Of a stretch of 64,000 bases of DNA, positions 3,950-30,576 are shown one piece after another. The translations under genes and the position numbers were made by a program. The stretch spans positions 558,001-622,000 of the forward strand of contig JABYQQ010000011.1 in the NCBI GenBank assembly GCA_022605405.1, written 5' to 3'. The notes beneath the pieces are model-generated. The model had not been told where the DNA came from and searched no databases. It saw nothing but the letters and a program-made list of their open reading frames with translations. The stretch comes from Earliella scabrosa (lineage: Eukaryota; Basidiomycota; Agaricomycetes; Polyporales; Polyporaceae). Position 1 is the first letter of the stretch. The number at the start of each line of letters is the position of its first letter.

Positions 3950-4921
3950 GGGGTGCAGAGACAGCGGCTTCTGGGTATGAATCAGTGATCGCCGTTGTCT
4001 GTAGATGCATGATGCCCACCTTTTGACAGTTATGGGACATCAGTCGGGCAGACGAGGAAGGAAACGTCAGACTGTAGTCACTGGACAACGCTAGACGAGC
4101 ACAAGTGAGAGCCACGCGAGAGGTTTGTTAGTTGAACGCGTTCATGGGCGGCATATAGGGAGCAGGTTCTCACCCGTGGATCAGTTGGGTGTGCTTACCT
4201 AGCCGAGTCTCGCCGCACGGTTTATATGCTGGCCAACGAAACGCGTCCGTAACCGAGAGGGATCACTCCCAGGCACTAGTATGGGAAGTTCGCGTCTGTT
4301 GGCTTAAAGCTGATGGTGTACGGATTGTGGGCCAGATCACTCGTGTTCAGGACGGTATGAGCTGGGAGGGACGTCAGAGTACACTTCATCCAGGTAGCTA
4401 TAAGCCGATTCTTCGTTTGGGGTTCACTGTGGCAGCGAGTGTCGCCGCTATGAGGTGGGAACTTCACAGAAGGCGGGCAGGTGTTGATAATCTGTCGTAC
4501 GTCAACTGTTGACGTTATTGCCGCAGCACGTCAGCCCACGACTCGTTCATCCTTTGACTCGCCGTTACACGTGGGTTCTACTGGCCCTGGGGTCCTGCCA
4601 GCACGTTGCTCCAGCGTGAGGAAAAGTTGACGAATGACGAGCTGCAGTACGGCGAGTCCGTAACGGCATCGGCATCAATACCGGGAGATAGAGGTTGTGC
4701 ACAAGTACAGGTAACTCGAGTGTCGAACGGAACCCCTAGACGCCGGCTGGGGAAAGCAAACCACAGGGCGGCTAGTAATGACTAGTCTAACAGAGATACG
4801 TCCTAAGCATACTCATTGAATCATCTCGTACTTTGCTACCGGCCCATGCTACTGACAGCAGAACTCAAGAGGGATCTGAACGGTATTGTAGCCTATCCGA
4901 CACACCGCAGTCCGGTGAGTA
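3950..4921. other. Intergenic, no gene seen
   Basis: About 970 bp between the F-box gene and the first small paralogue. Open frames are short on both strands and have no coding character. It probably holds the F-box promoter, on the 4.0 kb side, and the 3' end of the paralogue. Confidence 0.4.
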
Positions 4922-5789
4922 CTATCCAGCGCTGGAACTACCCTCCTCCATGATGGCGTCGAGTCCAATCCATTCAGAGCTTCTTGAGCGGTCTTGGCGA
5001 GTACGACGGAATGATGAAGCTCTAGACATATCGAAAGAGTTCAAGTAATTCTGAAATAACGTGATGCAAACAGCAAACGCACCTGATCCAGTCCACAGAA
5101 CCCTGGGCTTTTGGGGACCTCCTACGTTCCCCTTCGTGATCCTCTGCATCTAAGCTCACACTGCTACGGTACAGTCGCATTGCGTCAGATTTGGGCATTA
5201 CGATGAGCCTGCCTGTTACTACTCACCTGGTCTGCATACTGGACGCATCTGATCCTGGTGTCCACGATACGAAATCAGAAACTCCCGGTCTCCAAGAGGA
5301 ACCACGGTATTCATCGCCGCGGCAGAGTCCAACCGCCCAAGGGAAACCACCGTATTCATCACCCCGGCTCAGTCCAACGGCTGTCGACAGGAGGGTGCAC
5401 TTGACTAGGGTATAGCCCATCCATACCGACTGTGGGAGCTCGATGAAGCCGGGGAAGATGGTCGTGACGAGCAGATACTCGTACGCGTTTCCGAAGGACT
5501 CGTCGCAGACAAGGAAAATCAGGGCATCGGTCCGCATACCCTCAATGCCCATGATGAGTCCCTGGATACCGGTTGAGATTGTAATCCACGGATGGACAAA
5601 TACACCATGACGGTTGGAGGAGGAGAGGTAGTTGAGGTTGAGCGACACTCTCATCCCGAGCCGTAACGGGCGGGAGGGCCGCTCGATGACCTCGTAGACG
5701 CCGCCGCAGACGGAGTTAGCTGGACGGCGAACTGCAACACGAAGCTTGAGTGTAGGGAGGTCGGAAGATATACGAGAAGTTGACTGCAT
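4922..5789 (-). CDS. Small three-exon protein, paralogue A (unknown function)
   Basis: Model: exons 5227-5789, 5083-5163 and 4922-5021 on the minus strand; both introns are phase 2 and the total is 247 residues. The donors read CAG/GTGAGT and CAG/GTGCGT; the acceptors end in GTAG and CTAG. Exon 1 encodes a compact beta-rich domain starting near residue 16 (LRVAVRRPANSV, then E-x-PSRPLRLGMRVSLNL) and ending about residue 125. After it comes an in-frame tandem duplication of about 12 residues (GLSRGDEYGG, then GLCRGDEYRG). The C-terminus is polar, rich in Ser, Arg and Asp. The neighbouring gene at 6167-6961 is a diverged copy with the same exon structure and phases. I do not recognise the family. 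The domain layout (about 120 residues plus an acidic or Ser-rich tail) suggests a small interaction domain, but that is a guess. Confidence 0.6.
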
Positions 5790-6166
5790 TGGCTGCCCTC
5801 AAGATGACTGACTCGAAGGGTGGAAAGTCTGGGGGGAGCAGCTAGGAGTGAGGTTGGTTACGCTTATGAGAAGAGAAAAGCCGCTGTTGTATCAGGACCC
5901 GGTCCGCGGCGATATCATCTGTGCATCCGTGCACACGAGGAGTGCGGCTAAGACTGCCGCTGTTCTTTGTCCAGAAGCGAAGCTTCCTTCGACGAGCCTG
6001 AAACGCGAGGTGCGGCTCGCCCATCATGTGTGCATTCTCCGCATACCCTTGTCCAACCTTGGTGCCCGAAGCCATGAAAACATGCTTGATGGGGCGACCT
6101 GACACACAGTAGAGCATATCCCGTTGATACACAACGTAGAGAGAGAGGAGGATACAAGATAGGCTT

Positions 6167-6961
6167 CTAGATCTCCTCAGAGCTACTCGCACTAGTACCG
6201 CCGTCAACATCCCTATCAATTATGTCGTACCCATCGTCTTTCTCTTCTTCGTCTTCTGTGAGAGACATCACTGAATTGGATTCATAGCCACTATCTGACG
6301 CTTCGGCGTCATGCCTGTTGCAACATCGTAGGGGTCAGGGATGCCAGTTCTGGACGGGGCACGATACAAGTACTCACCTGATCTCGCCATGGAAGGGCCT
6401 TCGCCATGGAGGAATGGTAGCACGAACACAGTCTTGGCATTGTTGAGGAGGAGATATCCCGCTGAGGAACGTAAGTTGAGGTCGGCTTCGTAGAAGTTCT
6501 ACAGACATCGCTCACCTGAATCCCACCCTGGATAAATACTCCGTGAATTCCTCGGATGTTGTCTCGTTGTTGGTGTCACCGCCGGCCTCAGTCATGGAGA
6601 GGGCGAGGAGGTAAGGTTCGATGAGGAGGTACCCGGCAAAGAGGCGAGGAGGTAAGGTGATATACTTCTCCTCCAGGGGAACAATCAAGTAGACGTAGAT
6701 CCCGGACGGGGCGTCCTTGCGCACGATGACTTCGACGGCATCGAGGTATAGAGAGACAACAGAAATAACTGTGCCCTCGGCGCCGGTAGGGGCGATCAGC
6801 CAGAGCTGGCCCTGTCGATAGAACCGGATTTCGAGGTGGACCTTGCTCCCCAGAGTGAGCTTCGTCGACGGGGGCTCGATGGCTTTGAAAAGTGGCGGTC
6901 GAACCCCTGGATGCGCGGGGCGTATGATGCTAACTGCGACCGGGATATGAATGTCGGCCAT
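6167..6961 (-). CDS. Small three-exon protein, paralogue B (unknown function)
   Basis: Model: exons 6516-6961, 6378-6461 and 6167-6314 on the minus strand, phases 2 and 2, 225 residues. The start is the ATG at 6961; the frame is open further upstream but only from a GTG. Residues 1-130 mirror paralogue A: V-x-IIRPAHPGV, then E-PSTKLTLGSKVHLEI, then a string of beta-strand-like segments ending in YLIVPLEEKYITLPPRL. Exon 2 has a CQDC pair. Exon 3 encodes a very acidic, Ser-rich tail (SDSGYESNS, then SLTEDEEEKDD, ending SASSSEEI). The shared phases and the shared ATC-AG exon-2 ends in both genes support tandem duplication. Function is unknown. The acidic tail suggests a regulatory or nuclear protein, with low certainty. 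Confidence 0.65.
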
Positions 6962-7078
6962 GGTGAGATAGGAGAACGAGTGTGAGTAGGCGGCGACGAA
7001 CGTGGTCAGAGGTGTAATGAACGGAAACACGGGTTCAGCACCTGGACCGTCACCAATGATACTTAAGTAGCGGAACAC

Positions 7079-8450
7079 CCACTAACATAATTATTTTTCC
7101 CATGCCCAGTAGAGACCGTGCGAGCGCAGACAGAGAAGCCTGTTATCGGAGGGCGACTAACAAGTCAAACAGTTATGTTGCGCGATGAGCTCCTGGAGGT
7201 TGACCGGCGTGCTGGAGCTCGTGAGTTAGCCTCAGTTGCGGCTTGAGCACCCGCAAATTACTGGCAAAGCAAACGAATGTCCTTGTACCTAACCACTGGG
7301 CAGCGCTCCTCGAACGCTGATCTTTACGTCTACCGTCACTAGGACAAAGGACGTCGTGGTCGGAGCATGCGCTCGGTCGGCGAGCGGAGCTAAAGTGGCT
7401 ATATTCAGCATTGTTTGGTCAACTAGCGTTGCGAAGAACGGCGGTAATGAGTTGCTTCCTTGCGCAGCACTGTGAGATGAGAAGAAGTCTAGAGAAGTCT
7501 CAACCGACGGCTCTCAGGCTGAGACTCAGGTCAATATCCAATCATGCCTACGCGGCATTGAACCACGAGGTACCCAAAGCCACCGAGATCTGGAACTTTT
7601 ATTATTAGCTCCGAGGCACTTGATGAGCGCTCTACTTCTCTCTGGTTGCTCACAAACAAAGCAAGCCGGGTAGTATTCCGGTCTGGCCTGCACAAGGACT
7701 TTCGCATTTCTCTTACGTCCATTCAGCTTCCATCTCCTGCACCCCATCTCAGCTATATGTAATGTTTATGTTACGCTCTGTTGGTCTGGTCATGTATGCG
7801 ACCCTTTCTCCGCTCTGTCCTCTCTTCGAGACCTGCCTTATCCTCGGCTACACGTCTGCGCCATCACACGTGATCGCGTCTATTCCCTTGACGCTCATTG
7901 TGCCTGCCTGTCCCACCTCTGTAGCTCCCTCAGTACGATACACCTCGCAGCCCCTCTGTATCTGGCTGCGAGTCTGTTATATAGCACAGCTGCCTTGTCT
8001 GCACGTGCATGGCTTGAGCGCGATCTCATCCCAACCTCTGTCACCTCGCGTACACATACGCGCACCTCTTCCCATCATTTCGCATCTCTCTCACACTCGT
8101 GTCCTCCAACATCCGCCCCGTGGAGTTGCTCTACCCTCGCCGTTTCTCGACCCCGTCAATGACATCAACAGTCACTCCAACCATATCTGATACCCATTCA
8201 TCGTATGACAGAAGAGCAGAGAGATATCAGAAACTCATGTAGACAGTCTGATTGAGGGAAGATACGGCATGATACCACACATGGTCAAACAAGTGTCGAA
8301 TCATGTTTGTCGATATTTGTTGCGCGTATCAGGGCGTCGGAGTGCGAAAGATCCGACGAGTCAAGCAAGAGCATGGATATGGACATGGCAAGCTAGGAAG
8401 CGGCAAGTATGGGGTCTATATGTATCACCAAGTTCGTGTTAAGCATCTGC
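7079..8450. other. Intergenic, pyrimidine-rich stretch
   Basis: No gene is recognised. Positions 7780-8190 of the plus strand are strongly pyrimidine-rich, which opens one 142-codon frame of low complexity. A short ATG frame at 8159-8242 lies after it. This could be the leader of a lost or unrecognised gene. No repeats were noticed. Confidence 0.35.
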
Positions 8451-12444: not shown

Positions 12445-15400
12445 ATGTCTTCGGTCGCGAACATCGAAAGTGATGGTCGAACGGCTCTTGGGATTGACAT
12501 ACTGTGAGTCTCCTCCCTATTTGAAGAACGATCTAACTCACAATTGACTCCCTCGGTACGTAGGGCCTCTTTGTGCAAGGAAGACCTTTTAGTTCGTCCA
12601 GTCCCGATGAACTTAGCCTCTAGTGCACGCTGACGACTGTTCCTAGCGTCTTGTCCGCGTGTCATGGTCATGCCCCAATACTGTCAACGCCGTGAATCTA
12701 CTTGACCCCGCTCAATTATTGCAACGAGCGGCTGTACTCACGGTAAAGTGGGAACGCATTCGTCGCTGGTGCCAGATCCGGGACGCAAAAGTTGGAGACG
12801 GATGTCCTCAGCGGGGCCGATCTCGCACAGATTGGAAAATTGACGAGCATGTCTTCAAGTTGGTTCAGCGTGGTGCCATCTCTATTCCCGACGATCAGGT
12901 ATGGACTTTCTACTGCCCTCGCGGGAGTCTCCTCAAGCTCACAACTGTGTGTTCCAAGCCTGATGGCAGCTCTGAGCAACCAAGAATGACCATCTTAGAT
13001 CCTACTCCCATGGAGGGGACCGCTGGGGTATCGTACCATGGTCGGGCGAAATTGCTCTCAGCTCCATCATCGGAAGAGATCATAGGCAGACAGCCAAGAT
13101 GGCCGTCAGTACTGCCCCAGCCGGGTCCCGCTCCGACCGTCACTTCCCCCAGAGTTGAGACCGAGCGGTCCCCGACAGCACCTCCCGCTCCGACCGTCAC
13201 TTCCCCCAGAGTTGAGACCGAGCGGTCCCCGACAGCACCTCCCGCTCCGACCGTCACTTCCCCCAGAGTTGAGACCGAGCGGTCCCCGACAGCACCTCCC
13301 GCTCCGACCGTCACTTCCCCCAGAGTTGAGACCGAGCGGTCCCCGACTGCACCTCCCGCTCCGACCGTCACTTCCCCCAGAGTTGAGACCGAGCGGTCCC
13401 CGGCAGCACCTCCCGCTCCGACCGTCACTTCCCCCAGAGTTGAGACCGAGCGGTCCCCGGCAGCACCTCCCGCTCCGACCGTCACTTCCCCCAGAGTTGA
13501 GACCGAGCGGTCCCCGACAGCACCTCCCGCTCCGACCGTCACTTCCTCCAGGGTTGAGTCCCGGTCGGCGAAAGCACCTCCCCAGCCTCGGAGTTCCGCT
13601 CCGACCGTCACTTCCCCTAGAGTTGAGTCCCGGTCACCGAAAGCACCTCCACAGCCGAATCCCGCTCCGATACTTCCTCCCTTGACCGCTGAAGACGTCA
13701 TCATGTATCAACGCGGAGATGAGGGTTCGAATGCTGTTTTTCCCACCATGGCTGCCGCTGCCACCTATCAGGCCGGTGCGGACGGTGCTGTACCACCACC
13801 CACTTCAAGCCCACTGCTTGTGAACAAGAGCGTACCTCGTAATACCCTCTCACAGACGCAACGCAAACAATGCTCCGCGCGTGCACCTTCTAAACGTACT
13901 GGAAGTCTAGCATATTCCGAGTTCGACCTGACGCGGCTCAATCCTCTCCTATATGGAGCTCTGGAAGCATGCGAATTTGTAGGTTGTTGTCTCAATCTGA
14001 GATGTTCTCCACGAGCAGCTAACTTGTAACTGCATCTGTATAGTTCGACGACGATTACGATGGAAGCTCGCGTGCATCATCTCCGACTATCAACTCCGAG
14101 TCCGTGGAGTCGGACATGGACGCTCCGATGTCAGACGACTCAGATCTTCAAATCGACGCGAGATCCGGGCTGGATCTTCACCGCGAGGCAATTCGAGAGG
14201 CTCAGTTGCGCAAGGTGCGGGGTATCTCAAGCTCTCACAATCAGATGTGCTTTCTGACAATCATATGTTGCGCATCACTCAGGCTGAACAGGTATGTATC
14301 GGCAAATCTCACTCGCCCTCTAATAAACAACCGCTGAGTCAATCTGTCTTTGTGATGATCGTCCTACAGCGAGCCTCAGGCGTGTGTACCACTTCTCTAT
14401 CTTACTTTGCTGCATACAGAAGTGACCGTTAATATTGACAGGAGACTCCTGTCTATCTATTCACACCACCGACTCGGAGGCATCCATCGGTTGTGAATAG
14501 ACACACACCTCCCGTGCGTGATATCGAGGCCCTCAGGAATGCGTGGCCCGGCATCGAGAAGCTAGTTGGATGCGGGAAGATTGTTGCCATGGGCATGGAT
14601 CACCGCGGATCGGATGCAGGCGAAGGCACTCCGGTCCTCTATGTCTTCAAGGATGTCGAGATGTTATTCTATCCGGCGGAAGAGCGGACTACCATTCAGG
14701 CCTCAACCTTGGTCAGACTTCTCAAGGACACGGTGAAGGTCCCTCATGGTCAGTTCTTTTCTTGACTGCTTTCCGTACTTCCGCTAAAAGAATATCTAGG
14801 TGGTGTATACTTCAGCTTGCAGCACACCATCAATGGTCGGCACTCCTACGACCATCTTGCATACCTGAAAGAGTCGCACGAGCTGGAGCTGCTAGGGGAA
14901 GACCGACCCGTAGACCTCGAGTTGCTAGATCCGAAGAAGACGTCCCAGAGTGTTAGCTTGGAGGGAGTGCACTTTGCTGCCTTCTATCATGTCGTCCTCG
15001 TGAGTCCCTCATCATCATATCATCTTGGTTCATCACACCCACGGGATTGAATGGTGGTCTAGGTGTCCTCTCGGGACAAGCGTCGTCGTGCAGAATCTGA
15101 CCTTGAAGAGGATTCGAACCACGATTCCACATTGGGACGTAACCGTGTCCGTACTGCATCGAGGTCGAAGAAGGGGAAGACGCCGCGCATTCACTACACG
15201 CCACAACAGAAGCTCGCACAGACGGTTGCCTGGTTGGAGAAGACTCAGAATGGCAGGTTCATGAAGCTGCCTGAGGTTCAGGAAATGCGCGAAGACGAGG
15301 AGAACGAGATCAATAAGTATGGTCCCCAGCCCATTCGCCGTCTTCTTCGGTGGTTTGAGGTCGCACACATGCTGCTTGAGCTCGGGCGCGTCGACCACTC

Positions 15401-16770
15401 TGCTGGGCCTGCAGCCGCTGGACAACTCATCACTCATAAAGCTGTTGCCGAATTCCTGCACCGTGGGCATGACTGGGTCACGCACTCGAAGACTTGTTTG
15501 AGCGCCATACAGTCCGGTAAACCTGCGGTCAAGGCGATCATGAAGAATCTAATCCACGCGAACGAGCCCATCGGGGCAGATACTCTGGCAAAGATGTTGA
15601 AGGAGGCGTCTTCGGAGGGCTCTGATACCATGAAGACTCGCATCACCAAGAAGCGTCGGGTCAACTACCCCACTCCAGCCTCCATGTCGGAGAGTGAGCT
15701 TGACGATGTCTTCGACGCTCCTCCTCCGAGTCGCAAGCAACATGCCCCCAAGTCCGTTGCCCCCTTTCTCGCTACGCGCAAGCCAGCCGAACCCAAGCCC
15801 GCAGTCGCCGTGCCTCAGCCCGCCGTGTCTAAGCCTAGACCCGTACCTAGGCCTAGGCCCCTCACCGCATCAATGTCCGTGTCTACAGTCTCATCCGGAA
15901 TTGGTTCGACGGCGGCGTCCAAGAAGAGCTCGTTCACGAACTCGAATCTTGAGGGCTGCAAGCGGCGACAGCATTGTTCTGAAAGCGACATGGACGACGA
16001 CAGCTCAGCGAACGAGGACCCTCGGTACAGGTTCGAAGTGAGTTCATCTTTTTGTGTGCGAAGACAGGAGATCTTTTCCAATGGAGATGAAGGAGAAATT
16101 GACGGTGACTCTCAGATAGAAGATGAATATGAAGAAGGCCCACAGGCGTACCCCAGCTATAGATCATCTGTTGTTTGCGACACGGAGGATGAGGACGAGG
16201 CAGACGTACACGAGTCAAGTAATGAAGGTTCCCCGGTCGACACATTTACTCAAGAGTCCGACGACCCAATGAAGCGTTACCCAGGTGGAGTGAATCCCCT
16301 CAATTACGACGATATATGATGACTAACCTGACACTTAGATCGGAGAGCAGACTCAGAAGAGAGTCCGGAGACTTCGGATGATGAGGGCGCTAACTATGCG
16401 CAATCTGCTAGGATCAACGAGACTGACTTGCGCCAACGTTCTCGGCATGGGCAGACACAACTTCAAGGCGATGAAGGTGAGCTTACGGTCACTATGTGCA
16501 GGGTATTTAGTTGCTCATTGTAATCCCGAAGGCTCGGCGCGTGCCGACAGTCCTGATTACCCAGAGCCGCGGATGCCCCACCCTCGCCCCCGGTACAGGG
16601 GCGTGAGTGCACAATCCGCAGCAACGGGGGTACTCCCTACCGAATCCAGCACTGAGTTGCACAACCAACCACTCGCGGGGCCCAGTCAAATTCCGCCACA
16701 GAATGCCGCACCTAGAATTGAATGGAAGTCTGTGCAGATGGGGAAGTTCAGAATTGAGATACCTAAATGA
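12445..16770 (+). CDS. Ten-exon gene for a ~1,234-residue unrecognised protein
   Basis: Model: 12445-12503, 12564-12591, 12647-13978, 14044-14214, 14283-14291, 14442-14748, 14800-14999, 15063-16284, 16339-16476 and 16532-16770. Every junction has GT/AG ends and matching phase, and the sum is 1,235 codons. The 9-nt exon 5 could be skipped without changing frame. Residues about 190-370 hold seven perfect 19-residue repeats (core PTVTSPRVETERSP) and two diverged ones (RVESRS). Exons 6-8 are more globular, with segments such as WPGIEKLVGCGKIVAMGMD and GVYFSLQHTINGRHSYDHL, then a basic patch after the last of these (SRDKRRR, RSKKGKTP). The C-terminal third has several acidic runs (SESDMDDDS, DTEDEDEADV). 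The basic and acidic pattern suggests a nuclear protein; I recognise no domain. A further open frame at 16767-16991 may belong to an alternative 3' end. Confidence 0.7.
13131..13670 (+). repeat. In-frame coding minisatellite, unit 57 bp
   Basis: Seven almost identical 57-bp (19-codon) units and two diverged units lie in exon 3 of the ten-exon gene. Differences between units are mostly single bases (ACA/ACT/GCA at one Thr/Ala codon). The near identity points to recent unequal exchange or slippage. Confidence 0.92.
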
Positions 16771-17370
16771 ATCGACTTGGTGTACTACGAATATCACGAA
16801 TGACTCATGATGACTTGCATTCTGGCAGAGAGCGGAAGTGCGATACACGTTATGAAAATGATTGTGATACAGAGTATGTAGAGGAAGACGGCGAGCCGCG
16901 AACAGGACCGCGGGTGGGAAGTCTACGTTGTGCGTGGTCAAGGAATCACAGCGATGATGACGAGAAGGAGGAGGAGAGATTTCGCGCGTAACCCCGCGTC
17001 TCGCACGACGCAAGCACCCAGATCACACAGCCTCGCGGCTGTACGGCGAAGATGTAGCGACGATGAAAACTCTTCATAATAAAACGAAGTTCACCTAGAC
17101 GCAATTGAAACATCACGTCCTGCGCCCCAGTCAGGTGCCGGTCTCAACAACGTGGCTCGTCATTTGAGCGTGGATCTATTATCTGACCTGAGTCGGGATT
17201 TGGATTGATGCTTCTGGAAGCTTGAGTGTTTATATCAACTAACATCAACCCTCGAGTTGTTCATAATAGCGTGAAGTAGACGGTGATGAACATATATCAG
17301 GTCTCATAGCGTATGAACTACCAGGTAATACACGAACAAAGTGCCGCAACATCACTGGCAGGCACAGCGA
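16771..17370. other. Short intergenic region
   Basis: An open frame at 16767-16991 overlaps the stop of the ten-exon gene and encodes a polar, acidic or basic tail (HSDDDEKEEERFRA at its end). It may be an alternative last exon. The remaining sequence to 17370 lies between two converging genes, and I see nothing in it. Confidence 0.35.
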
Positions 17371-18325
17371 CTAAGTCCGAGGTAGACGCAGCTCCTCCAA
17401 GGGGACAGTACGTGGCCTCGCAGCGCGTTGAGAGAGTGTCGACACCTTCCAGTCATTGTACACTGACACCATCTCGTCCAAGAAGAAATTGTAGTGGATC
17501 CGAGTCATCTCGCGCACGATGGGAAGGAACTTGCCGTACCAGTTGTTTGTCTGTTCTGCAACGGAAGAGTTGAACACCCACTTCGTACCGTCCGTGAGTT
17601 CGGGAAACGATGCTGGGTTGCAGTTCATTGCGCAAAAGGCATCGGTATCCTTGTGCTTGACGGTGGCGTGGAAGACGTCTACAGGGAGCCCGACTTTCGA
17701 GAGCCTCGTCTCGCCCGACGCCAGGATATGTTTGAGAAGGATGCAGTTGTTGTCAAAGAAGCAGAACGACGGTTGACAACGAGGCAATTGGTGAGGAAAC
17801 GTTGCGAGAAGGAAAGCCTGTGGTACAATGTGAGCGACACGGCATGACCATCTAGTGTGCTAAATTGAAGACAGACCAAAGCATTAGAGGGGGACTCCGC
17901 TTCATAAAAGGTCGCGCGCGACACTATCACGCCGCAACAACGAACAATGAGCTGATCATTGTGGGTGTAACGACGAGTCAACGCGGACTTGAAAGAGCGA
18001 CCAGGGACCTTATCATGGCAGCCGCCCTCTGCACCGTTCGCGAGCGTATCTTCACGAGCAAGCGTGGTTGCGACTTCAGGATCGTCGAGAACATCCATAT
18101 TCATAGAATCCCGGCCGTCCAAGGCAGCAATCCGTATGGCAGACGCCTTGGAGTGTCCGGCCAGACGCTTCCTCAGGCGAAAGATGGCTTGTCCGCGTTC
18201 TCGTTTCTTCGTCTCGTAGGCACGGTGGCTGCCCTTGTTGCAGGTACGCATGCTGTCCGTCGCAGGCCGTTTGCATCCCTTGATAGCACAGAGACCCTCT
18301 TGATCACAGTGACGCAGACAGAACC

Positions 18326-18335
18326 TGTCCCTCGG
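18326..18335. repeat. Target-site duplication, left copy
   Basis: TGTCCCTCGG directly precedes the insert and recurs at 25605-25614. On the KDZ coding strand it reads CCGAGGGACA and encodes the P-R-D part of the CxC6 cluster in both flanks, which is what a duplication of host coding sequence requires. Confidence 0.85.
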
Positions 18336-18420
18336 AGCCCACTCAGTAGAAATCCTCACGTTAGTGTTCGAGCCGGGCTGACAATTGCCCACTCCAGTGG
18401 ACCAGCCGGGCCCGACCGGG
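18336..18420 (+). repeat. Left terminal inverted repeat of the insertion
   Basis: Matches the reverse complement of 25520-25604. The first ~25 bases match with a few differences and one indel. The inner ~55 bases, from GAGCCGGGCTGACAATTGCC onward, match almost perfectly. Confidence 0.85.
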
Positions 18421-18619
18421 CATAATATATGCCCACATGTATGTACCGGCCGGTACGTAAACGCATTGACACTGACACATCCCGGCCGGGAACTGCTGCC
18501 TGCCCACTGCCATATCCCGGCCGGGAGAGTGTGTTATGGTAGTGCTGTAGTGTAGAAACATGAATGCAGCCTGGCTGCTGTGTAATTTCAGCCAGAAAAC
18601 CAATTTACCCAGACAGGGT

Positions 18620-19175
18620 GGCAAGGTGCTCAGCCGGGTGCACCGGGTCGCTTGCATTAGCAGCATCCTGGATACAATCAGGGTGCGCACACACCCTGAG
18701 CTGACTACCCAGACACTTTAATGCCCACCTCAGCTGGTCACACAACCGGCCAAGAGCACACTCCATTCAGATAGAGCGGAAGATGTGTTCCTACCTCAAG
18801 CCGGGTGCACCGGGTCACCTCGAGCCGGGTGCACCGGGTCGCTCGCACCAGCGGCACCTGGGATACAATCTGGGTGTGCACCTATCTTGAGCTGACTATC
18901 TGAATACCATAATGCCCTCCTGAGCCGGTTGTGCGACCAACCAAGAGCACACTTCGCCTAGATAAAGAGAGAGATGTGCTTCTACCTCGAGCCGGGTGCA
19001 CCGGCTCGGTCACACCAGCGGCACCTGGGATATGATCTGGGGGTTCCCACCCTGAGCTGACTACTTTGACACTGTAATGGCCTCTTAATTTGGTTGCACA
19101 ACCAACCAAGAGCACACACCACCCAGATGGAGCAGGAGACGTGCTTCTACCTTGAGCCGGGTGCACCGGCTGCAC
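18620..19175 (+). repeat. Left array of ~165-bp GC-rich repeats
   Basis: Copies of a unit marked by GAGCCGGGTGCACCGG start near 18634, 18824, 18991 and 19156 (period 165-190 bp), with an extra partial copy at 18801. Units share the phrases CACCAGCGGCACCTGGGAT and CCAACCAAGAGCACAC. Orientation is opposite to the right array. Confidence 0.85.
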
Positions 19176-19306
19176 GATCACTGCATATCTGCATATTTTC
19201 CCATATCACCATTATGTGAAGTTGCATCATATATCGTCAAAAAGATAAATACATACACTGGTTGTTCTACATCTGCTTGCTCTGGCTGGACTACATTTCT
19301 GGTAGT

Positions 19307-19646
19307 GCAGACAGTCCGGCCGGTATACATACATTGCAATGCAGACAGCCCGGCCGGGATACATACGTTGCAATGCAGACAGTCCGGCCGGGATACATAT
19401 GTTGCAACGCAGACAGTCCGGCCGGGGTACATATGTTGCAATGCAGACACTCCGGCCGGGGTACATACGTTGCAACGCAGACACTCCGGCCGGGGTACAT
19501 ACGTTGCAACGCAGACAGTCCGGCCGGGGTACATACATTGCAATGCAGACACTCCGGCCGGGGTACATACGTTGCAACGCAGACACTCCGGCCGGGATAG
19601 CTACATTGCAATGCAGACAGCCCGGCCGGGTGTCCAGTGGTGCCAT
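19307..19646 (+). repeat. 34-bp minisatellite, ~10 units, CCGGCCGG-rich
   Basis: GCAGAC recurs every 34 bp from 19307 to 19613. Each unit joins a palindromic CCGGCCGG block to a TTGCAA core. The units differ almost only at the CpG dinucleotides beside the core. Looser CCCGGCCGGG-containing units continue to about 19830. Open frames on both strands here are repeat artefacts. Confidence 0.92.
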
Positions 19647-20135
19647 CTGTGTTTTCCGGCCGGGCCGAAGACATCATGACCCGGGTAGCCCGGCCGGGTG
19701 CACAGTGTCTGTACAGTAGTAGCCCAGCCGGGTATGCAGCATCCCCACAGTAACACCCAGACCGGGAAGACTGCATCTGTACTGAGGCATCCCGGCCAGG
19801 TGTACTCCATCTATACAGGAGTATTCCGGCCCAACAAACTATGTGTCTACAAGACTGGGTAAGCAGAATTTATATATACATACTCTGCACAGACACTCCA
19901 TTCAGTTATGGCTGTTGTTTGACCAACACCACTAACATCGTGTAGTTCAACATTATTTTACTCCCTTTCCAGCCCTCCGGCTGCATTTTGTTTACCCACA
20001 GCCTTGTGAATATGTCACAGTGTCACAGACTTGTATCATTTGCAGCTCATCAGGGCAAACCAATTTTTTCTGACTCCGCTTTTCACTACAATACGGAACC
20101 TTGCCCCAGCCTAACCAGGGCTGTTTGGCCCGGCC

Positions 20136-20280
20136 ATTCCACCCAGCCCGATTGACCCGCCCAGCCCGACTGACCCGCCCAGCCCAATTGACCTGCCCAA
20201 CCCGACCAACCCGCCCAGCCCAATTGATCCGCCCAGCCCAAATGACCCGCCCAGCCCGATTGCCCCGCCCCGCCCAGTCC
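20136..20280 (+). repeat. 18-bp minisatellite, ~8 units
   Basis: Units of the form GACCCGCCCAGCCCRATT follow each other with an 18-bp period. Variation is largely C to T or G to A at CpG sites (CCCGATT/CCCAATT, GACCCGCC/GATCCGCC). Confidence 0.9.
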
Positions 20281-20917
20281 ACCTGCAGTTGCTGCATTCT
20301 TTTCTCTTAGTGAGTACAATCATATTTCCTCTTTGAGCTCTCAGTCACAAAGATCAATGTGTTGATCAACTCTGCTGCCTGCATCAAGCCTGTGACAGCA
20401 TCAAGCCAGTTCTGTGCAAGATCCTTGGTGGTGCCCGCAAGCTGGAGGGTCTCAGAGATATTGACATGGTAGCTGGTCACAGGGTGGTACTGCAAAGGGT
20501 TGGATTATGGAAAACATTGCCTACAAACTTGCACTCACCACCCATGGATCAATGCTGCGCCGCCAACTGGGCCCTGCCCGGTCCGGCCTGTCCGGCCTGC
20601 CCGGCTTCATCAATGCATATTCACCATCAGTTCTGGTGAAGCAGGTAAAGACTACCACCTGTAGTTTCCAGTTTTGTATTACAAAACACCACAGATGTAG
20701 TGAAACTGTTGTATATTTTGGAGAGGTGTTTTGTTCAACTCTTCACCTTTGTAATAGCAGTGTTATTAGACACTGTAGCACAATACTGTTGTATAATCCC
20801 CTGTAAATCAGAGGCAGTTTTTGTATATCTATTGTATAACTGACTTATGTCAGCCTGATCAGATCTTTGTAAATCTGCTGTAGAACTGACCCATGTTAGG
20901 CTGATTAGATGGAAGAG

Positions 20918-22490
20918 GTATCTCTTGCTCTATTTTGAGATAACCAGGGCACCTATGCTCATGAGCAGAATGCCATCATGTAGAGATACATTAGGGCTAA
21001 TGAACACATTTTTGTTCAGTGTGATACATGGGGTATTGGTGGAGATATAATGTATTTTGTTTTTGCAAAAAGTGGCCACTTTGTCTGGTCTATTGCTTAG
21101 GTACCCCTGGGTACCATCCAATGTCTCTACAACCATTGTGTAGGGATTAAGTAGGGCTTTCGAAAAATATATCATACACCCCAAACTGTCCACATTCACC
21201 CACCCTCTCCTCCTGACCCCCTTCCCATCAATCCCCTTATATATCCCTTTAGAGGCATTGGATCAGCTTGCAAATTTGAGAGTATATATTAGGATCATAG
21301 TACAGCCCACTATTAAAATATTACATGCCACTGCTGTCTACAACCTCCCAGTTATAGCAAACAATTTTGTGCATGCACATTAAATATTCTCTCTATATCT
21401 CAGCAACCAAATTACCAATTAGCAAGCAGTCTTTTGCAGTCTGTCAGTATGTAATGGAACTATATTCTCACCAACTTCCATTTCTCAGAGATGTCTGGAT
21501 CTATCTGCATAATGCTATCAGTTGTGAACAGAGATAACCACTTGGTACCAGATCTAGTGTGCTGTACTTCTCCATATGTTCAGATAGGGGTCTCCTAAAT
21601 GCTCTGTACTGAATGCAAAAGAAATCACGGAAAACGGTTGAGTAGTTGTGGTGCTATGGCAAAAGATGTGCCTGGAGGCTGTTATGTGAATAGTACAGCT
21701 GCATGTGCTGTGCAGAATTCATAAAACACCATCCAGCACATCTTTTGCCATATCACCACAACTACTCAACCGTTTTCCATGATTCTTTTTGCATTCAATA
21801 CAGAGCATTTAGAAGACTCCTATCTGAACATATGGTGGTGTACAGCACACTAGATCTAGTACTAAATGGTTATCTCTGTTCACCGCTGATAGCATTATGC
21901 AGATAGATCCACACATCTCTGGGAGCTATAAATTGGTAAATAGCCAGTGCTATGGTATAGCAGCAGAGTGAGGAAAATTGCATATCAATTGGTGGTCAGA
22001 CTGCGAAGATATAGGGGAAATATTCAACGTGCATGCACAAAATTGTTTGCTATAACTGGGAGGTTGTAGACAGCAGTGGCATGTAATATGTTAATAGTGG
22101 GCTGTACTATGATCCTAATATATACTCTCAAATTTGCAAGCTGATCCAATGCCTCTAAAGGGATATATAAGGGGATTGATGGGAAGGGGGTCAGGAGGAG
22201 AGGGTGGGTGAATGTGGACAGTTTGGGGTGTATGATATATTTTTCGAAAGCCCTACTTAATCCCTACACAATGGTTGTAGAGGCATTGAATGGTACCCAG
22301 GGGTACCTAAGCAATAGACCAGACAAAGTGGCCACTTTTTGCAAAAACAAAATACATTATATCTCCACCAATACCCCATGTATCACACTGAACAAAAATG
22401 TGTTCATTAGCCCTAATGTATCTCTACATGATGGCATTCTGCTCATGAGCATAGGTGCCCTGGTTATCTCAAAGTAGAGCAAGAGATACC
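20918..22490. repeat. Central 1.57-kb inverted repeat (palindrome)
   Basis: 20918 onward is the reverse complement of the sequence ending at 22490, with the centre near 21704. The outer parts of the arms match closely (a few percent differences); the inner parts near 21380-21440 and 21950-22020 are more diverged. Each arm keeps the same 89-codon frame (20930-21199 minus, 22208-22477 plus) with two or three amino-acid changes; I do not recognise it. The arms are visibly more AT-rich than the rest of the insertion, so this may be a separate element nested in it. Confidence 0.88.
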
Positions 22491-23189
22491 AATTGTCCGG
22501 TTCCGGCTCAACCGGTGGCACCGGCTTATTTGGATGCACTATCGCAGATGGTCCATTTGGGGGTTTAACTGAATTTCTGCAGATAGATAATTACTCTAGG
22601 GATTGCCCTGGTTAGAATGTTTCCACTCCTCACTCCAGCCGTTGCTCTCCAGGCTTGCCGGTCCGTCCGGCACAAAACAGAGACCGTCCAGGCCGCTCAA
22701 CCCGGAGATCATTACCCATCATCTGTGGCTACCAGTGGGGGGTCAGGTGTGCCAGTTAATGTCTCATCAACAGATTTTACATCTATTGAGATTAAGAAAC
22801 CCTTCATTACAACTGCTTTCTCAGATGATAGGTCACCTGTCTCGCAGACCGGCTCATGCGGGTCATCCGGTATTGCCACTGAATACAGCCCTGGGGGAAT
22901 CTTAGATGGCACCATGGACCCTTTCCACTTTCTACACAACAGAAAGCAGGCGTGGAAGCAAGTACTCCAGACACATGGCCACCAGCACACCTTGTCTTCA
23001 CATGTCTCTATTTGTCAATGACAGAATTACAATAATGTGCTTGTAGAGACAATCACAGAAGATGTGGGAACAGTGATGATGTCGGAGTATGTGTGATGTG
23101 TAAGAGATGATGTTGTGATTTTTGTGCAGCAAGACCAGTGAGTGCTGTCATTTTAACACCAACCAAGAAACAACCTGTATCTGACCTGG
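22491..23189. other. Unique segment inside the insertion
   Basis: Sequence between the palindrome and the right array. An open frame at 22617-23021 (plus) has no recognisable domain. No function is assigned. Confidence 0.3.
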
Positions 23190-23701
23190 GTGGTTGCACC
23201 GGTGCACCCGGCTCGAGTTAGGAGCACATCTCAAACTCCATCTGGATAGAGTATGCTCTTGGTTGGTCACGCAACTAACTTCAAATGGCATTTTGGTTTC
23301 TTGATAATGAGTCCTGAGTGGGTGCACACCCCAATCATATCTCGTGTGCCGCTGGTGCAAGCAAGCCGGTGCACCCGGCTTGAGGTAGGTGCACATCCTG
23401 TACTCCATCTAGGTGGAGCAAACTGGCTTGGGAGGCCCGTGCAGTGTTTGGATAATTAGTATATAATGAGTGCACACCCAGATCATACCCTGGGCACCCC
23501 AAGTGTGAGCGAGCCGGTGCACCCGGTTTGAGATAGAAGCACACCTTTTGCTCCATCTGAATAGAGCCTGCTCCTGGTCAGTCACAAAAGAAGCTTGGGA
23601 GGGCATTTTGGTGTCTGGATAACCAGTCCTGGCTGGATGCACATCAAGATTGTATCTCAGGAGCCGCTGATACGTGTAAGCCGGTGCACCCGGCTCGAGG
23701 T

Positions 23702-23993
23702 AGGTGCACATCTCCTGCTCCATCTCAGCAGATTCTGATCTAGATATGCTGTGCCACCCACTCTCTACACCCTCCATGATATTTGGTAAATTTGCCAGAC
23801 TCCATGGAGAACTAGGGCAAACTCCATGCCCTGGGTTAGATTTGGAAGCCGGCTGGTGCAACCCATCCAATCATGCGAAACATGAAGTACATTACTAACA
23901 GCGGCAACAATGTAGAGTCAACCATATCATGGCACCATTGCGTATGATAGAGTGAGAGATCATTAGACTACAGAGCTCCAACCGCAGCTACCA
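23702..23993 (+). repeat. ~290-bp direct duplication, copy 1
   Basis: Nearly identical to 24934-25226, including GATTCTGATCTAGATATGCT and TTTGGTAAATTTGCCAGACT. Only a handful of differences are seen, so the duplication is recent. Confidence 0.88.
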
Positions 23994-24155
23994 GGCTGTC
24001 TGAACTGCAACACATGTACCCCGGCCGGGCGGTCTGCATTGCAATGTATGTATCCCGGCCGGGCTGCCCGCATTGCAACGTATGTACCCCGGCCGGGCTG
24101 TCTGGACTGCCAGGAATGTAGTCCAGCCAGAGCAAGCAAATGTGGGACAACCAAT
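23985..24155 (-). repeat. Inverted short copy of the 34-bp array
   Basis: Three 34-bp units in reverse orientation, followed by the reverse complement of the sequence that precedes the left array (TTGCTCTGGCTGGACTACAT). This shows that the left and right halves of the insertion descend from one ancestral half. Confidence 0.85.
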
Positions 24156-24933
24156 ATATGTGTTTACCTCCTCAACAACATCTCATGCAACTTGACATAA
24201 TGTTCAGATGGAAAAATGTGTAGATATGCAGTGACTGACCAAGCCGGTGGAGCCGGCTTGAGGTAGGAGCACATTTCTCGCTCCATCTGGCCAAATCCCG
24301 CCCCGGTGTCTTGTGAACTTAGCTGTATATAGCATTACAGTGTCCGGGTAGTCAGCTCAAGACTGGTGCACACCCAGATCGTATGCCGGGTGCTGCTGGC
24401 GGGAGCAAGCCGGTCAACCCGGCTCAAGGTAGGAGCACATCTCGTGCTCCATCCGGGCAGAGTTTGCCGTCGGTTCGCTGTGCAACCAGCTTGGGGAGGC
24501 ATTATGGTGTCTGGGTAGTCAGCGCGGGGTGGGCGCACACCCATATCATATCACGAGTGCCGCTGGTGTGAGCAAGCCGGTGCGCCCGGCTCGAGATGGG
24601 AGCACATCTCTCTTTCCATTTGGGCAGAGTGTGCTGTCGGTTTGCTCTGCAACCAATTCAGGAAGGCATCACGGTGTCTGGGAGGTCAGCGCAGGGTGGG
24701 CGCATGCCCAGATCATATCTCGGGTGCCACTGGTGTGAGCAAGCCGGTCGACCCGGCTCAAGGTAGGAGCACATCTCTCGCCCCATCTGGGCAGAGTTTG
24801 CTGTCGGTTTGCTGTGCAGCCAGCTTGAGGAGGCATTATGGTGTCTGGGTAGTCACCTCAGGGTCGGCGCACTCTCAGATCGTAGTCCGGGTGCCGCTGG
24901 TGTGACCAAGCCGGTGGACCCGGCTTGAGGTCG

Positions 24934-25226
24934 GTGCACATCTCCTGCTCCATCTCAGCAGATTCTGATCTAGATATGCTGTGCCACCCACTCTCTACAC
25001 CCTCCATGATATTTGGTAAATTTGCCAGACTCCATGGAGAACTAGGGCAAACTCCATGCCCTGGGTTAGATTTGGAAGCCGGCTGGTGCAACCCACCCAA
25101 TCATGCGAAACATGAAGTACATTACTAACAGCAGCAACAATGTAGAGTCAACCATATCATGGCACCATTGCGTATGATGAAGTGAGAGATCATTAGACTA
25201 CAGAGCTCCAACCGCAGCTACTAGGC
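24934..25226 (+). repeat. ~290-bp direct duplication, copy 2
   Basis: Second copy, 1,232 bp to the right of copy 1. It ends where copy 1 runs into the inverted 34-bp units. Confidence 0.88.
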
Positions 25227-25519
25227 AGCTGAACATGTCACCTTGAGACAGTACAGATACAAGTCGTCATTAAGTACATGGTGTGCTGTCCCTCTGTATG
25301 CCTGCTGCTATGCTGCTGTATGCCCATAACTATACTATGCATGCTTAAGATACTGTCCCAGACTCTCATCGTATCCAGTCAATGTGTGCCAAAGTTGAGT
25401 GCTCTGACCCGGACCAACCGGTTTTGACTGCATCCCCTGTGACCCCGCACCGGCCGGTTCATTTGACTGCAATATGGCAAAACACCCCGGCCGCATCACT
25501 CCAGTGCCATAGAAATGGT

Positions 25520-25604
25520 CCCGGCCGGGCCCGGCTGGTCCACTGGAGTGGGCAATTGTCAGCCCGGCTCATACACTACAGTGAGGTATTTCTACTGAAG
25601 TATG
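25520..25604 (-). repeat. Right terminal inverted repeat of the insertion
   Basis: Inverted partner of 18336-18420. Inner differences are mainly GACCGGG against GGCCGGG, again a change in a CpG-rich context. Confidence 0.85.
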
Positions 25605-25614
25605 TGTCCCTCGG
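25605..25614. repeat. Target-site duplication, right copy
   Basis: Perfect 10/10 match to 18326-18335. The KDZ coding sequence to the right ends LVSPRD at this point and resumes as PRDRFC at the left copy. Confidence 0.85.
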
Positions 25615-27152
25615 CGAGACCAGAGGTTCACGGCAATGATCGACGTTACAACGCGGGTGGCCGATGGTAACTCCATCCATCACACAGGCGGAGAGTCGTT
25701 CTGAGTCGTGTGTTAGACGATTGTAAGCGCTATAGATATATACATACTTGGGGGACTATCCGGGCCCGCCCGAGGGATGATCTTCTCACATTCGTCACAC
25801 GCATGGGCCCAGTGTGGTTGGCCGGTTCCGACCATGCGACTGTTGCGAGCGTCGAGCGCTGCATCGAACCGCTTTGTATGCTGGCCAGTATGAGGTAAAG
25901 ACAGAGGAATGCCGCGACGGGCGCTGTCGAGAAGTAGGGCGTGGAGGTAGAAGGCATTCCAAACGATGTCAGTGGTGAGAAGATGGGGATTATGCTCCAA
26001 GGTGAGACCAGCATTGTAAACGCGCGCGATAGTTTCTCCCGAAGCACTATGCTCGCACTATTAGAATGAGAACAAAGTGATAGACCAAGGGATGACGTAC
26101 TGAGCGAAGGCCATTTGCGCCCTAATGAGCTTCATGAGATCACGATCGATGTAGGCGTGTTCTGCAACTTCAATCGCTGGCGGAATGCCGCCGTAGTACC
26201 GGCGAAGCGCCCCGGATGAACTCGCCTGCTGTACATAGTAGTTGGGACGATAAGTGGTATTGCATCCTGAGCGATATAGCACCAATGAGAATAGAACTCA
26301 TGATTCAACCCCTGATAACCGATGGAAATCACATACCTGCGCAGTAGAGTGTAACAACCCAGACAGGAAGCACTCCGCGACGAAGGGTGTACATGTACGC
26401 CAAGTACCCCTTGCGATGGCCTCCGAGCGGTTTCCCATGGTCTTTGCAGCCTACGGTGGCGCACTTGGTGAAAGGGGCAACCATGACCTCTGCCCCTGTG
26501 TGCGATTTCAAGATAGGCTGTTAGACCATACGAATGGGATTTACATACCTATATCGCGTTGCAAAGCCTGAGCCGATAGACGTCTGTCCAGCGTTGTGAC
26601 GCCTATCTCCTCGTCCCAACCTCCTTGAAGTGCCAAATCCCCAAGTGCCTCCCAAAGCGCATCAATCTCTGACATTGACATAGAGAGGACAGCGCACATG
26701 ACACTTCGAATGTGAGCGGGAAGGGCCGGCCTGCCAAAGATCGTAGTACGAGGACACTTGAGGGTGATGAACGAGGACAATCGATGGACGACAGAGAAGA
26801 ACTGGGTGACTTGTGTATATTGTAGTCGAAATTGAAGACGGGGATTTTGAGCAAGCCTGGCGGAAACTTCATGGAAGAGAAACATGACGTTTGCATAGAG
26901 GGGGATGATAGTGAGAACGAGGCAGGACACAGTGGGCGCTTAAGCGCAGTACTTCGTGAGGAAACGTGCGGACTCACGATTCCAGCGCACCCGCTTACGT
27001 CTCAAGCATGCAGCCATGTTGTCAATCGCAGTCATCAAGCCCAGGTATGACCAGAGTCAATCCACGTTCGTCCCTGCATTCGCTGACGAGTCTCATGTTG
27101 GAGACCAACTTCAACTAGTACTGATTCAGGAACTTCGTTGAACTTCAACAGC

Positions 27153-28903
27153 ATGACGACTCCACGTGCCCTCCTTGTGGGGGACATCGTCGACGAGATT
27201 GTCGAGCATGCGGCCGTCAATGGGACTCGGAGAGAGTCGAAGCAGCTTCTCGCACGCCTCGCTCGAGTTAGCTCGATCTTTTGCGATCCCTGTCTCCGCC
27301 GGTTGTGGGCGAACATGAACTTCCTAGACCCCCTGTTCAAGCTCTTGTCGCATTGCGAACCCATTCCTGGCTCAGCTGTATTTGTGGATGACGATGGAGA
27401 GTCGACAGAGGAAGCCATCGATTCACGCGGCACCGTCCAAGTACAAGTTGCTGCCGCCAGTCGTTTCCGCTTGGTGAGTACCGTGCTCGAATTTCGATGA
27501 ATCGCAGGATTTATGCCCAGGTCGACATTTTTGCTATACAATAGAAGCTGCGCGGAGACACGTCATCAGAAAATATCGCATACTTTCAAGCTCGAGCTCG
27601 CCTTATCCGCGTTTTACGTCTCTCTAGAGAGAGCGTAGCTTCGCTAGAGCTGTCATGCTGGCACACTCTCACTCAGCAGGCCGGGCATCCTCTTCTACCT
27701 TTTCTCCAAGTTCTCACTCTCCCGGTGACTCCGCCATATCATACAGAGGCAAGACTCATCGTGACTTCATCCCTCCGCGAACTCTCGGTCATCTTCCCAG
27801 CGTGGCATGTCATCGACTTGAACAACGAGATCGGGGATTTTTTCAACGACATCTTCGTACGTGCCCCGCATCTCACGCAGCTCAAGCTCGAGTCCGAGCC
27901 TTCATACTGTGAAGAGCCCATCGCTTACGACGATGAACCGATTGACCTGTCTTACCGTGCCTTCCACTCGGCGTTGTCGGCAGTCCGACGATGTCAAGCT
28001 TTGGAGGTCTTCGACACCATATCAATGGAGGTCCCAATCACAGATGTAACCCTACTTCACGTCTTATCGACTCTTCCATGCCTTCGGCACGCCTCCATCA
28101 AGGTGTGGCTTCCATATGAAAGCTCCAGCACCGTACTCCCAAGATTCCGCAGTTTGTTCAGCCTTGTGGTCTCAGGAGTCACACAGGGACACGAGCTGAA
28201 CATTTTTGACTGCCCACATCTCTGCAGTCTCAGCATAACACAACATACCTACCCGGGGTCCCCTTGGTGCCCCCAAACACTGGAGATCGTTGCGCGGCGC
28301 TTCTCGCACATCCGCCATCTTTCCTGGACGGCGTGTCACGGGAGGTGGAGCGCCTTCGAATCGGAGTCGAAGAATCAAGCCCTCTCCTCTCTCTTCCGCC
28401 CCCTTCATAGTCTCACCGCTCTTGAGACGCTCACCATGGATGTCGGGCCGATCGTGCAGGAGTCCGAGATTGAGGTGCTTGTCACCGGTCTCCCTCAACT
28501 TGTCGATCTCCGGCTCACACACTGCAATCCGTGGTACTACTACGACTCAACCTGGCAAGCTACTCTGAGTGCGCGAGCGCTCGTTATTATTGCTCAAGCC
28601 TGTCCGGCCTTACGGTCTCTTCACCTGTCTAGGATACATGTCCCAGAGGCGAGCTTCCCGGAGGTCGAAGCGTACTCAATCATCGCACACCCTCTGCGCT
28701 CGCTTTACATTGCAGAGCTAGAGTGCAGGCACCAGAACGTCTGCGCAATGATCATTGACATGACCTTCCCATGGCTTGACATTGCTGGATGTAGGAGGCA
28801 GGAGAGGGAGATGCGTCAGGCTCACTATACACCGGCGTCTGAGTCCCAATGGCCAGACGTCCTGATCCGGCTGGAGACGTTTCATCGAGGGCGAGATGAG
28901 TAG
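27153..28903 (+). CDS. F-box-like / leucine-rich protein
   Basis: Model: exons 27153-27473 and 27545-28903, a 71-nt phase-0 intron, 559 residues. Residues 8-60 form an F-box-like helix set (LLVGDIVDEIVEH, LLARLARVSSIFCDPCLRRLW, then LFKLL). The rest is a series of Leu-rich segments typical of fungal F-box proteins (RSLFSLVVSGV, LCSLSITQH, LPQLVDLRLTHC, LRSLHLSRIHV). It would act as an SCF ubiquitin-ligase adaptor by family analogy; the substrate is unknown. The ATG is only 118 bp from the start of the KDZ gene on the other strand, so the two share a short divergent promoter region. The gene is undamaged. Exon structure (F-box in exon 1, repeats in exon 2) is common in this group. Confidence 0.85.
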
Positions 28904-30576
28904 TCCCCTGGTTGGTGTCGTCTACGTGTACCAGAAGAGCGTCCCATTAATCCATTACGATTCTGATATCCGATGGTTTCAAAATGCCTGAGATGAGATC
29001 CCGTCGGCGCCAACTACATTGCCACCGAGGCGTGAACTGGGACTAGCTTCGGCGGTACGTGAGATGATCAGGTACTTCAGTAACTGAAACAACCGGGTAG
29101 AATGATGGGGACTGTGCTGCCTCGCAGTGATCAAAGGTAGGAGGCAGACGTTCGGTCGTCTGAAGCTCGCGGATTCACGTGCATCTTCATACGTGAATGC
29201 ATCGTCCTGCGTTGCGTAGCGTCTCACGATGAGCTGATACACCTCGGATGGTACATGGGTACGGATGGCAACTTGAGAGGAAAGAAGAAGACTATAGGGA
29301 GATGAGGTCAGGATGACAACAACGTAATCACTTGTAGTACTTCTGTGGGACTACCCGCTGCCTGATGCAGTGAGCGTTCGTATGACAACCAAACACACTA
29401 GCCATGAATTACGATAACTCTCTGAATTATCGCCCCATTTCCCGCTTCCCCGCCAACGTGTCCAGCTTCTGTCCGTGCCGCGAGTTCATGGGCATCTCCA
29501 GGGTCGACAGCATAGCCGAGCTCACGCATCTCATGAGCGCATCGTATAGGACGCACCTTCTGGAGCCACGTAGCAGCCGGTCAACTCTGTGGCCTTTTCA
29601 CGGGTATCAAAGCGAGACTTGCGTCAACAGCCGGCGTAAATAGCGTTGTGCACCACCAGCCAAGTATACGCGCCGCTAGCCCGGATGTATCCGTCAATTG
29701 AGCATGAGGTGGCAGGGGCGGCTGGACGCATCCCCGTTGAGGGCACATCGCCCTCACTTGTTGAGCGCGCGGGGATGTCGGGCGGCGCGTGCCTTACGCT
29801 TCGTTTCTGCTTGAGTGGTGCGCTGTTCTGATTGTGCCGTCTCGACAGGTCGGAATCTGACTGTGATGACGATGCAGACTCGGAGCTTCGACTAATACGC
29901 GGTAAGGATGACATCCATAACCTGGATAAGATTGTGCCAATTGCCTCTCTAATTCTAGGACGCTCAGCTGCTCTACTATAGACGTGAACAGGGTCTACGC
30001 GCTTCCACTAGTACTATCAGTCCTCAATCGTCCGTAAGTAGGACGTGTGGGACGTTTTTGACAAAATCATGTCAGGATAATCGCTGTTCCTGACAGCGTT
30101 CTTCCTGAGCGGCCCGTATGGAAGCCAAAACTGCGTAATCCATTGATGTCTACGGTAGTTGACCTCCCAGGCCCCCACCTCGCTGACGTCGCTTAAACGG
30201 CATCCGAGGACCGCATGTACAGTGTTTCAACCCGCTGCGCTAGAAGCCGACCTTTTGCCGGAGGCAATTCATGAGCTATGTCGGGCCCGGCTACGATGTC
30301 TGACTCAAGCTCTGGAGCAGATAATGGGCACCGTCTCCACAAGCGGCCCTGCAAGCACAGTCTCTCTCTGTATGCGTCGAAACCGCATTCTAGCTCTCCC
30401 GCTCACTCTGCTCTCCAATGAAAACCATGTGCTACGAATTCGCCGACCGGGGGACCTGTCGGCGTGGCAATCTGTGTCGGTACACCCATGTCAGCGGCCA
30501 CGACTTCAGGAGGGTGAGCTTTCATTTCGGCAAGCATCTCGACTCAGCCCTTGCTTGACAGTGGCATGCGCAGATC
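28904..30576. other. Gene-poor stretch with decayed coding traces
   Basis: No intact gene. The plus strand near 29845-29910 has an acidic, Ser-rich coding-like stretch (SESDCDDDADSELR), and 29960-30030 a Ser/Thr-rich one, which may be relics of a gene of the 12.4-kb type. Open frames are short and have no domain. Confidence 0.3.

Follow-up and report, generated by a model that had tools for sequence, protein, structure and literature searches.

Kyakuja, Zisupton and Dileera transposons belong to the same KDZ group. As set out in parts of PMC12730594 (Kojima 2025), two Laccaria Kyakuja families, Kyakuja-1_LB and Kyakuja-2_LB, make 7-bp target duplications, have CA..TG termini and carry no terminal inverted repeats (TIRs); Zisupton and Dileera make 8-bp duplications, and AG-type TET/JBP is found also in some Zisupton. 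The same parts describe TET-encoding (TET+) Kyakuja families from consensus sequences, list Polyporales among Kyakuja host orders and give 7-bp duplications for hAT7. In the portions of PMC12810828 used here, Cryptococcus KDZ1 makes an 8-bp duplication and KDZ2 and KDZ3 make duplications of 4-8 bp; these elements are about 9.2-11 kb long, carry CxC1, bear TIRs of 139-241 bp and have observed mobility, and those portions give no evidence of mobilisation of clearly non-autonomous copies. Here, we describe an inserted element of 7,272 bp that interrupts a gene for a CxC5-CxC6 protein in a 64,000-nucleotide stretch of the genome of the wood-rot fungus Earliella scabrosa (the window, C11:558001-622000, in a genome of 51.7 Mb and 48 contigs). 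It is a known kind of transposon in a clear, well-bounded new case, with a probable 20-kb TET+ partner in the same genome. The family is not described in the titles and abstract openings of the literature searched or in the cited parts of PMC12730594 and PMC12810828, a scope outside which Repbase lies.

A sequence-only reading of the locus had placed an insert of 7,269 bp, with boundaries exact to the base, between the two copies of a 10-bp target duplication, TGTCCCTCGG. The window contains this sequence exactly two times, starting at 18326 and at 25605, and not on its opposite strand. The boundaries were set by comparison with all 13 complete copies of the element found in the genome. In each of them, the 7 bp before GAGCCC are identical to the 7 bp after the right end, TATGTG; in a control, mismatched pairs of left and right flanks agreed in 0 of 156 combinations. 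The base preceding AGCCCA is G in 13/13 copies, and the eighth base on the right varies (G in five copies, T in five, A in two and C in one). Since the 7-bp flanks are always identical and the eighth right-hand base is not constant, the target duplication is 7 bp long (TCCCTCG), and the element therefore spans 18335-25606. An 8-bp duplication was ruled out, since 13/13 copies fit 7 bp and the eighth base matches in only 5/13. The three surplus bases of the literal 10-bp repeat can be accounted for accordingly. In the right copy TG belongs to the end of the element, and in the left copy it matches by chance; the extra G belongs to the start of the element in the left copy and is coincidental in the right one. 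Thus, the repeat itself is present as reported; the length of the duplication and both boundaries had to be corrected. The inverted repeats, earlier put at about 85 bp, are indeed seen at the element ends; they are imperfect and extend for about 90 bp, with a 67-nt core at 93%. Excision of 7,279 bases in silico leaves the flanking exon parts in phase, which agrees with the earlier claim.

The flanks of the insert (17700-18335 and 25605-26400) were queried separately against the genome. At two paralogous genes, the matches adjoin each other: 398253-398888 (88%) and 398880-399685 (85%) on C23, and 141987-142606 (80%) and 142599-143408 (82%) on C21. Both sites contain a single TCCCTCGG. Empty sites at the interrupted CxC6 codon, which the sequence-only reading had proposed to look for, are therefore present, and the insertion of a transposon into the host gene is real, its boundaries being set by the 13 genomic copies and by two empty paralogous sites. 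At three places on C16 and one on C4, both flanks are matched in part, with a spacing that, by arithmetic, is near the empty length; the alignments there end before the insertion site, so these places are only suggestive of further empty sites. The remaining genomic matches touch one flank only. An E. scabrosa protein, P0019 (C8Q76DRAFT_632028), contains the sequence seen at the C21 copy and reads through the insertion site, where the motif SPRDR is invariant across 10 aligned proteins (of 21 found).

A search with the left end of the element retrieved at least 28 end matches, which resolve into the 13 complete two-ended copies, located on 12 contigs. There are also two lone ends: a left one, C11b, with only 186 bp matching (among listed matches over 120 bp), and a right one, C18b, belonging to an element that extends as far as the contig end on C18. 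Among the 12 matches listed per query, the arrays of C18b are closer to a 20-kb copy than to a short copy. Ten of the complete copies are 7.1-8.8 kb long and have no coding centre; the other three are 20.1-20.9 kb long. Pairwise comparison of the 20-kb copies over an ungapped alignment of 16,601 bases shows 10, 21 and 25 substitutions; this count excludes the end arrays, which vary in length. When 14 open frames of one of them, C26, were compared with Pfam, three gave matches above the cut-off: KDZ (PF18758, E 5.2e-36), CxC2 (PF18803, 5.7e-26) together with CxC1 (PF18802, 2.1e-6), and Tet_JBP (PF12851, 3.5e-17). Matches to HMG-box and PRIMA1 fell below their cut-offs. KDZ and Tet_JBP are present without stops in the other two copies, C35 and C37, too, with 100% identity of the KDZ segment across the three copies. 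The TET segment aligns to CcTET (8jkk, 7vpn; E about 1e-17) with HxD present, from which the equivalents of Gly331 and Asp337 of CcTET were placed by offset.

The short copy aligns piecewise to C26: its positions 1-2292 correspond to 1-3354 of C26 and its positions 4237-7271 to 17780-20604, and no match from it is listed to the coding centre of C26. None of the 79 genomic matches to the KDZ protein segment lies within the window. Since the short copies have no coding centre and share their ends with 20-kb copies that encode KDZ and TET, the insert derives from a TET+ KDZ element and is non-autonomous. That the insert is itself a KDZ derivative, one of at least 10 such copies, and carries a nested palindromic element had gone unnoticed at first reading. 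Genome-wide, there are 39 Tet_JBP matches, 29 of them above the Pfam cut-off and several only a few kb from KDZ matches; the genome appears rich in TET+ KDZ-type loci.

Over the outer 100 bp of each end, the ten short copies are 98-100% identical to the three 20-kb copies. The identity falls to 83-85% at 200-300 bp from the left end and to 73-83% at 700-1300 bp from the right end. Conserved ends and a diverged interior would be expected if one transposase acts on short and 20-kb copies; the pattern is no proof of it. Between 100 and 420 bp from the right end, nine of ten short copies are still 96-99% identical to the 20-kb copies, the divergent copy C1 being at 93% and 87%. Either the end is a mosaic that arose through exchange with a 20-kb element, or it is under selection; the alignments suggest the former. 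Taken as a whole, the right 420 bp (25187-25606 of the window) are 96-100% identical to the 20-kb elements in the same nine copies and 87-98% in C1. Short and 20-kb copies both hold subterminal arrays of the 166-bp class and of 34 bp. The insert also contains an 18-bp tandem array of 7.4 copies at 20142-20275.

The best overall explanation, to which we assign a probability of roughly 0.8, is that the insert is a Kyakuja-like non-autonomous KDZ element moved in trans by the transposase of the 20-kb copies. A TET+ KDZ element of the 20-kb type would have lost about 14 kb of its coding centre, and the derivative would have kept the ends and subterminal repeats, which are presumably recognised by the transposase. 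It would also have received the foldback insertion described below. The element entered the CxC6-coding exon of the host with duplication of 7 bp; its movement was most likely of the cut-and-paste type and driven in trans by the KDZ transposase that the 20-kb copies encode. The earlier suggestion of a source transposase that may still be active gains a plausible source in these copies, whose transposase may be intact and active.

The likeness to Kyakuja, as described in parts of PMC12730594, consists of the 7-bp duplication (13/13 copies), the 3' TG (13/13) and a 20-kb partner with KDZ, CxC2/CxC1 and AG-type TET/JBP, the last of which does not separate Kyakuja from Zisupton; unlike those families, the insert has no coding centre and carries a nested foldback. 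Zisupton and Dileera are of the same KDZ group but make 8-bp duplications, which the eighth base of the copies does not fit. The Cryptococcus elements, as far as given in the parts of PMC12810828, share the KDZ transposase and TIRs but differ in the length of their duplications and in size, and hAT7 shares the 7-bp duplication but has a hAT transposase in place of the KDZ transposase of the partner. The non-autonomous membership of the KDZ superfamily follows from the KDZ domain of the end-sharing partner and from an insert with no transposase region.

Several observations weigh against this explanation. The left terminus is GA in 13/13 copies instead of the CA of the two Laccaria families, and the ends bear imperfect inverted repeats about 90 bp long, none being reported for Kyakuja-1_LB and Kyakuja-2_LB in the cited parts of that paper. 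By duplication length and TET type, the family resembles Kyakuja; because of the left GA and the inverted repeats, the element is filed only as Kyakuja-like, within KDZ and with no lineage assigned. In their interiors, the short copies have diverged from the 20-kb copies by about 15-30%, and thus the present 20-kb copies are not the direct parents of the short ones. The 20-kb transposase gene, read here as open frames, is only putatively intact. Finally, several of the 79 genomic matches to the KDZ segment are at 52-61% identity, and another genomic KDZ transposase could act. The case widens the Kyakuja-like pattern to elements whose inverted repeats are long and whose GA/TG termini are asymmetric, and the probable TET+ partner in the same genome makes KDZ trans-mobilisation, and likewise the proposed TET/JBP link to escape from silencing, testable in one fungus.

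The copies were next compared over 4,194 core columns, chosen by hand to omit most tandem arrays. The closest copy, C11a (C11:546813-553992), differs from the insert (C11:576335-583606) by 0.72%, or 30 sites, of which 11 are derived in the insert and 19 in C11a. It lies about 22 kb from the insert in inverted orientation and has another target duplication, so the pair looks like the outcome of local transposition. Among seven further copies, pairwise differences are 0.10-0.36%, compared with 2.10-2.22% between these copies and the insert, and their burst is therefore younger than the lineage of the insert; C1 is 3.65-4.03% from all other copies. The 11 changes on the insert's own branch (about 0.26%) set a bound on the age of the insertion. 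The small distance to C11a supports the earlier view that the insertion is recent, on a relative scale.

The interior of the insert contains a palindromic foldback element that is truncated on the right. In the window copy, its end sequence CACCTGTAG is found at 20656, and the right arm ends at 22490; a longer palindrome at C2:2593823-2596499 has CACCTGTAG at both ends and shows no matches to the flanking KDZ sequence. No clear target duplication was seen when the ends of this C2 copy were read. Outside the family, there are 12 places with both arms at 80-84%, and 11 of the 12 have a spacing of exactly 64 nt (40 of 46 candidates scored). The ratio of observed to expected CpG is 0.11 in the palindrome, 0.48 in the whole insert and 0.77-0.78 in the 20-kb copies, compared with 1.00 in the window outside 15001-30000 and 1.07 in the host stretches. 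Such low values suggest past cytosine methylation and deamination. With a foldback located within the KDZ element, which is in turn located within a KDZ-associated gene, three mobile layers are nested.

It might be argued that the palindrome is no passenger but has a function in the short family, e.g., by giving rise to hairpin RNA. The left arm is indeed present in 10/10 complete short copies at 98-100% identity, with no match listed in the 20-kb copies, and the arm spacing is kept in nearly all two-arm places elsewhere. However, the related palindromes outside the family, one of them longer and with its own ends, and a CpG content suggestive of decay make this function improbable. More speculative still is a scenario in which the non-autonomous family parasitises TET+ elements, retaining only ends and CCGG-motif arrays, profiting from the TET of its partner and influencing its own silencing through the inherited 0.75-kb hairpin, which would act as a decoy for methylation or small RNAs; we regard it as quite a long shot.

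Mobilisation by some other KDZ transposase of the genome than that of the 20-kb family would be in line with the number of KDZ matches noted above, but the KDZ domain is held by three complete copies among the at least 28 end matches, and one further right end reaches a contig end; we consider such a source unlikely. Mutator-like elements make 9-11-bp target duplications and encode a MULE transposase, and the literal 10-bp repeat and the inverted repeats of roughly 90 bp are reminiscent of them. Membership of this group was ruled out, since all complete copies have a duplication of 7 bp instead of 9-11 bp and the 20-kb relative encodes KDZ and CxC2. An assembly artefact or a segmental duplication, with no transposition, could be suspected from the position of C11a on the same contig. 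That copy, however, is flanked by TCTCGGT and not by TCCCTCG, and the 13 copies are spread over 12 contigs, each with its own flanks, so that this origin is hardly credible. Trans-mobilisation by the 20-kb family thus remains our preferred explanation.

The interrupted gene had been described as a KDZ transposase gene. Its CxC5 and CxC6 matches exceed the Pfam cut-offs, and Pfam describes both domains as associated with KDZ transposases; the insert splits CxC6. The KDZ catalytic domain, PF18758, gave no match in eight host pieces (E up to 1) or in four homologous proteins (E up to 10), so that the earlier description is supported in part. We therefore refer to it as a KDZ-associated gene predicted to encode a CxC5-CxC6 protein. 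Positions of all features are given in Table 1.

Table 1. Features of the insert and the interrupted host gene (window positions).
Feature	Position	Strand	Basis or remark
Inserted non-autonomous KDZ element, 7,272 bp, GAGCCC...TATGTG	18335-25606	+	Ends set by 13 complete genomic copies
Left target duplication copy, TCCCTCG	18328-18334		Identical 7-bp flanks in 13/13 copies; single copy at two empty paralogous sites
Right target duplication copy, TCCCTCG	25607-25613		Identical flanks in 13/13 copies
Left imperfect TIR, approximate extent	18335-18422	+	Outer 100 bp 98% identical to 20-kb copies
Right imperfect TIR, approximate extent	25518-25606	-	Outer 100 bp 100% identical to 20-kb copies
Left subterminal array, 165-191-bp units	18632-19171		166-bp array also at 449-1332 of C26
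34-bp tandem array with CCGGCCGG motifs, 9.6 copies	19306-19630		34-bp arrays in C26 too
Right subterminal repeats, 167-bp spacing in much, inverted relative to left array	23121-25121		166-bp array at 18586-19954 of C26
Inverted counterpart of 34-bp array, 3.3 copies	23994-24104
Nested, right-truncated palindromic foldback element, left end CACCTGTAG	20656-22490		CpG observed/expected 0.11; related palindromes elsewhere at 80-84%; longer one on C2 with same end sequence
Palindrome left arm, 755 nt	20917-21671	+	92% complementary to right arm, 64 nt between
Palindrome right arm, 755 nt	21736-22490	-	Pairs with left arm
Host gene, CxC5 first part; open-frame extent	26332-26520	-	PF18718, E 3.2e-7
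Host gene, CxC5 second part; open-frame extent	26064-26297	-	PF18718, E 1.5e-15
Host gene, split exon upstream part, start of CxC6; open-frame extent	25607-25755	-	PF18721, E 6.2e-10, profile 1-26
Host gene, split exon downstream part, remainder of CxC6; open-frame extent	17682-18334	-	PF18721, E 1.9e-9, profile 25-65
Host gene, C-terminal part; open-frame extent	17374-17859	-	No Pfam match; by eye close to P0019 C-terminus

The claim that the host has no other lesion held in the two exon parts beside the insert, which were compared with the C23 and C21 paralogs: most changes affect third positions, and indels are limited to two, each of 9 nt. Differences from C23 at codon positions 1, 2 and 3 number 9, 13 and 27 in the downstream part and 3, 0 and 12 in the upstream part, with no indels; those from C21 number 12, 15 and 40, plus the two 9-nt indels, downstream and 0, 1 and 12 upstream. 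This pattern fits coding sequence constrained until recently. When inverted repeats were searched for in 8000-45000 of the window for TIRs of a host element, the 25 longest of 34 pairs all lay inside the insert. A predicted structure of P0019 had a mean predicted local distance difference test score (pLDDT) of 46.2 and was not used. Elsewhere in the genome, three host-like CxC6 matches are located about 19.56 kb apart at C16:479896-520309, a spacing suggestive of a large KDZ-associated element repeated in tandem.

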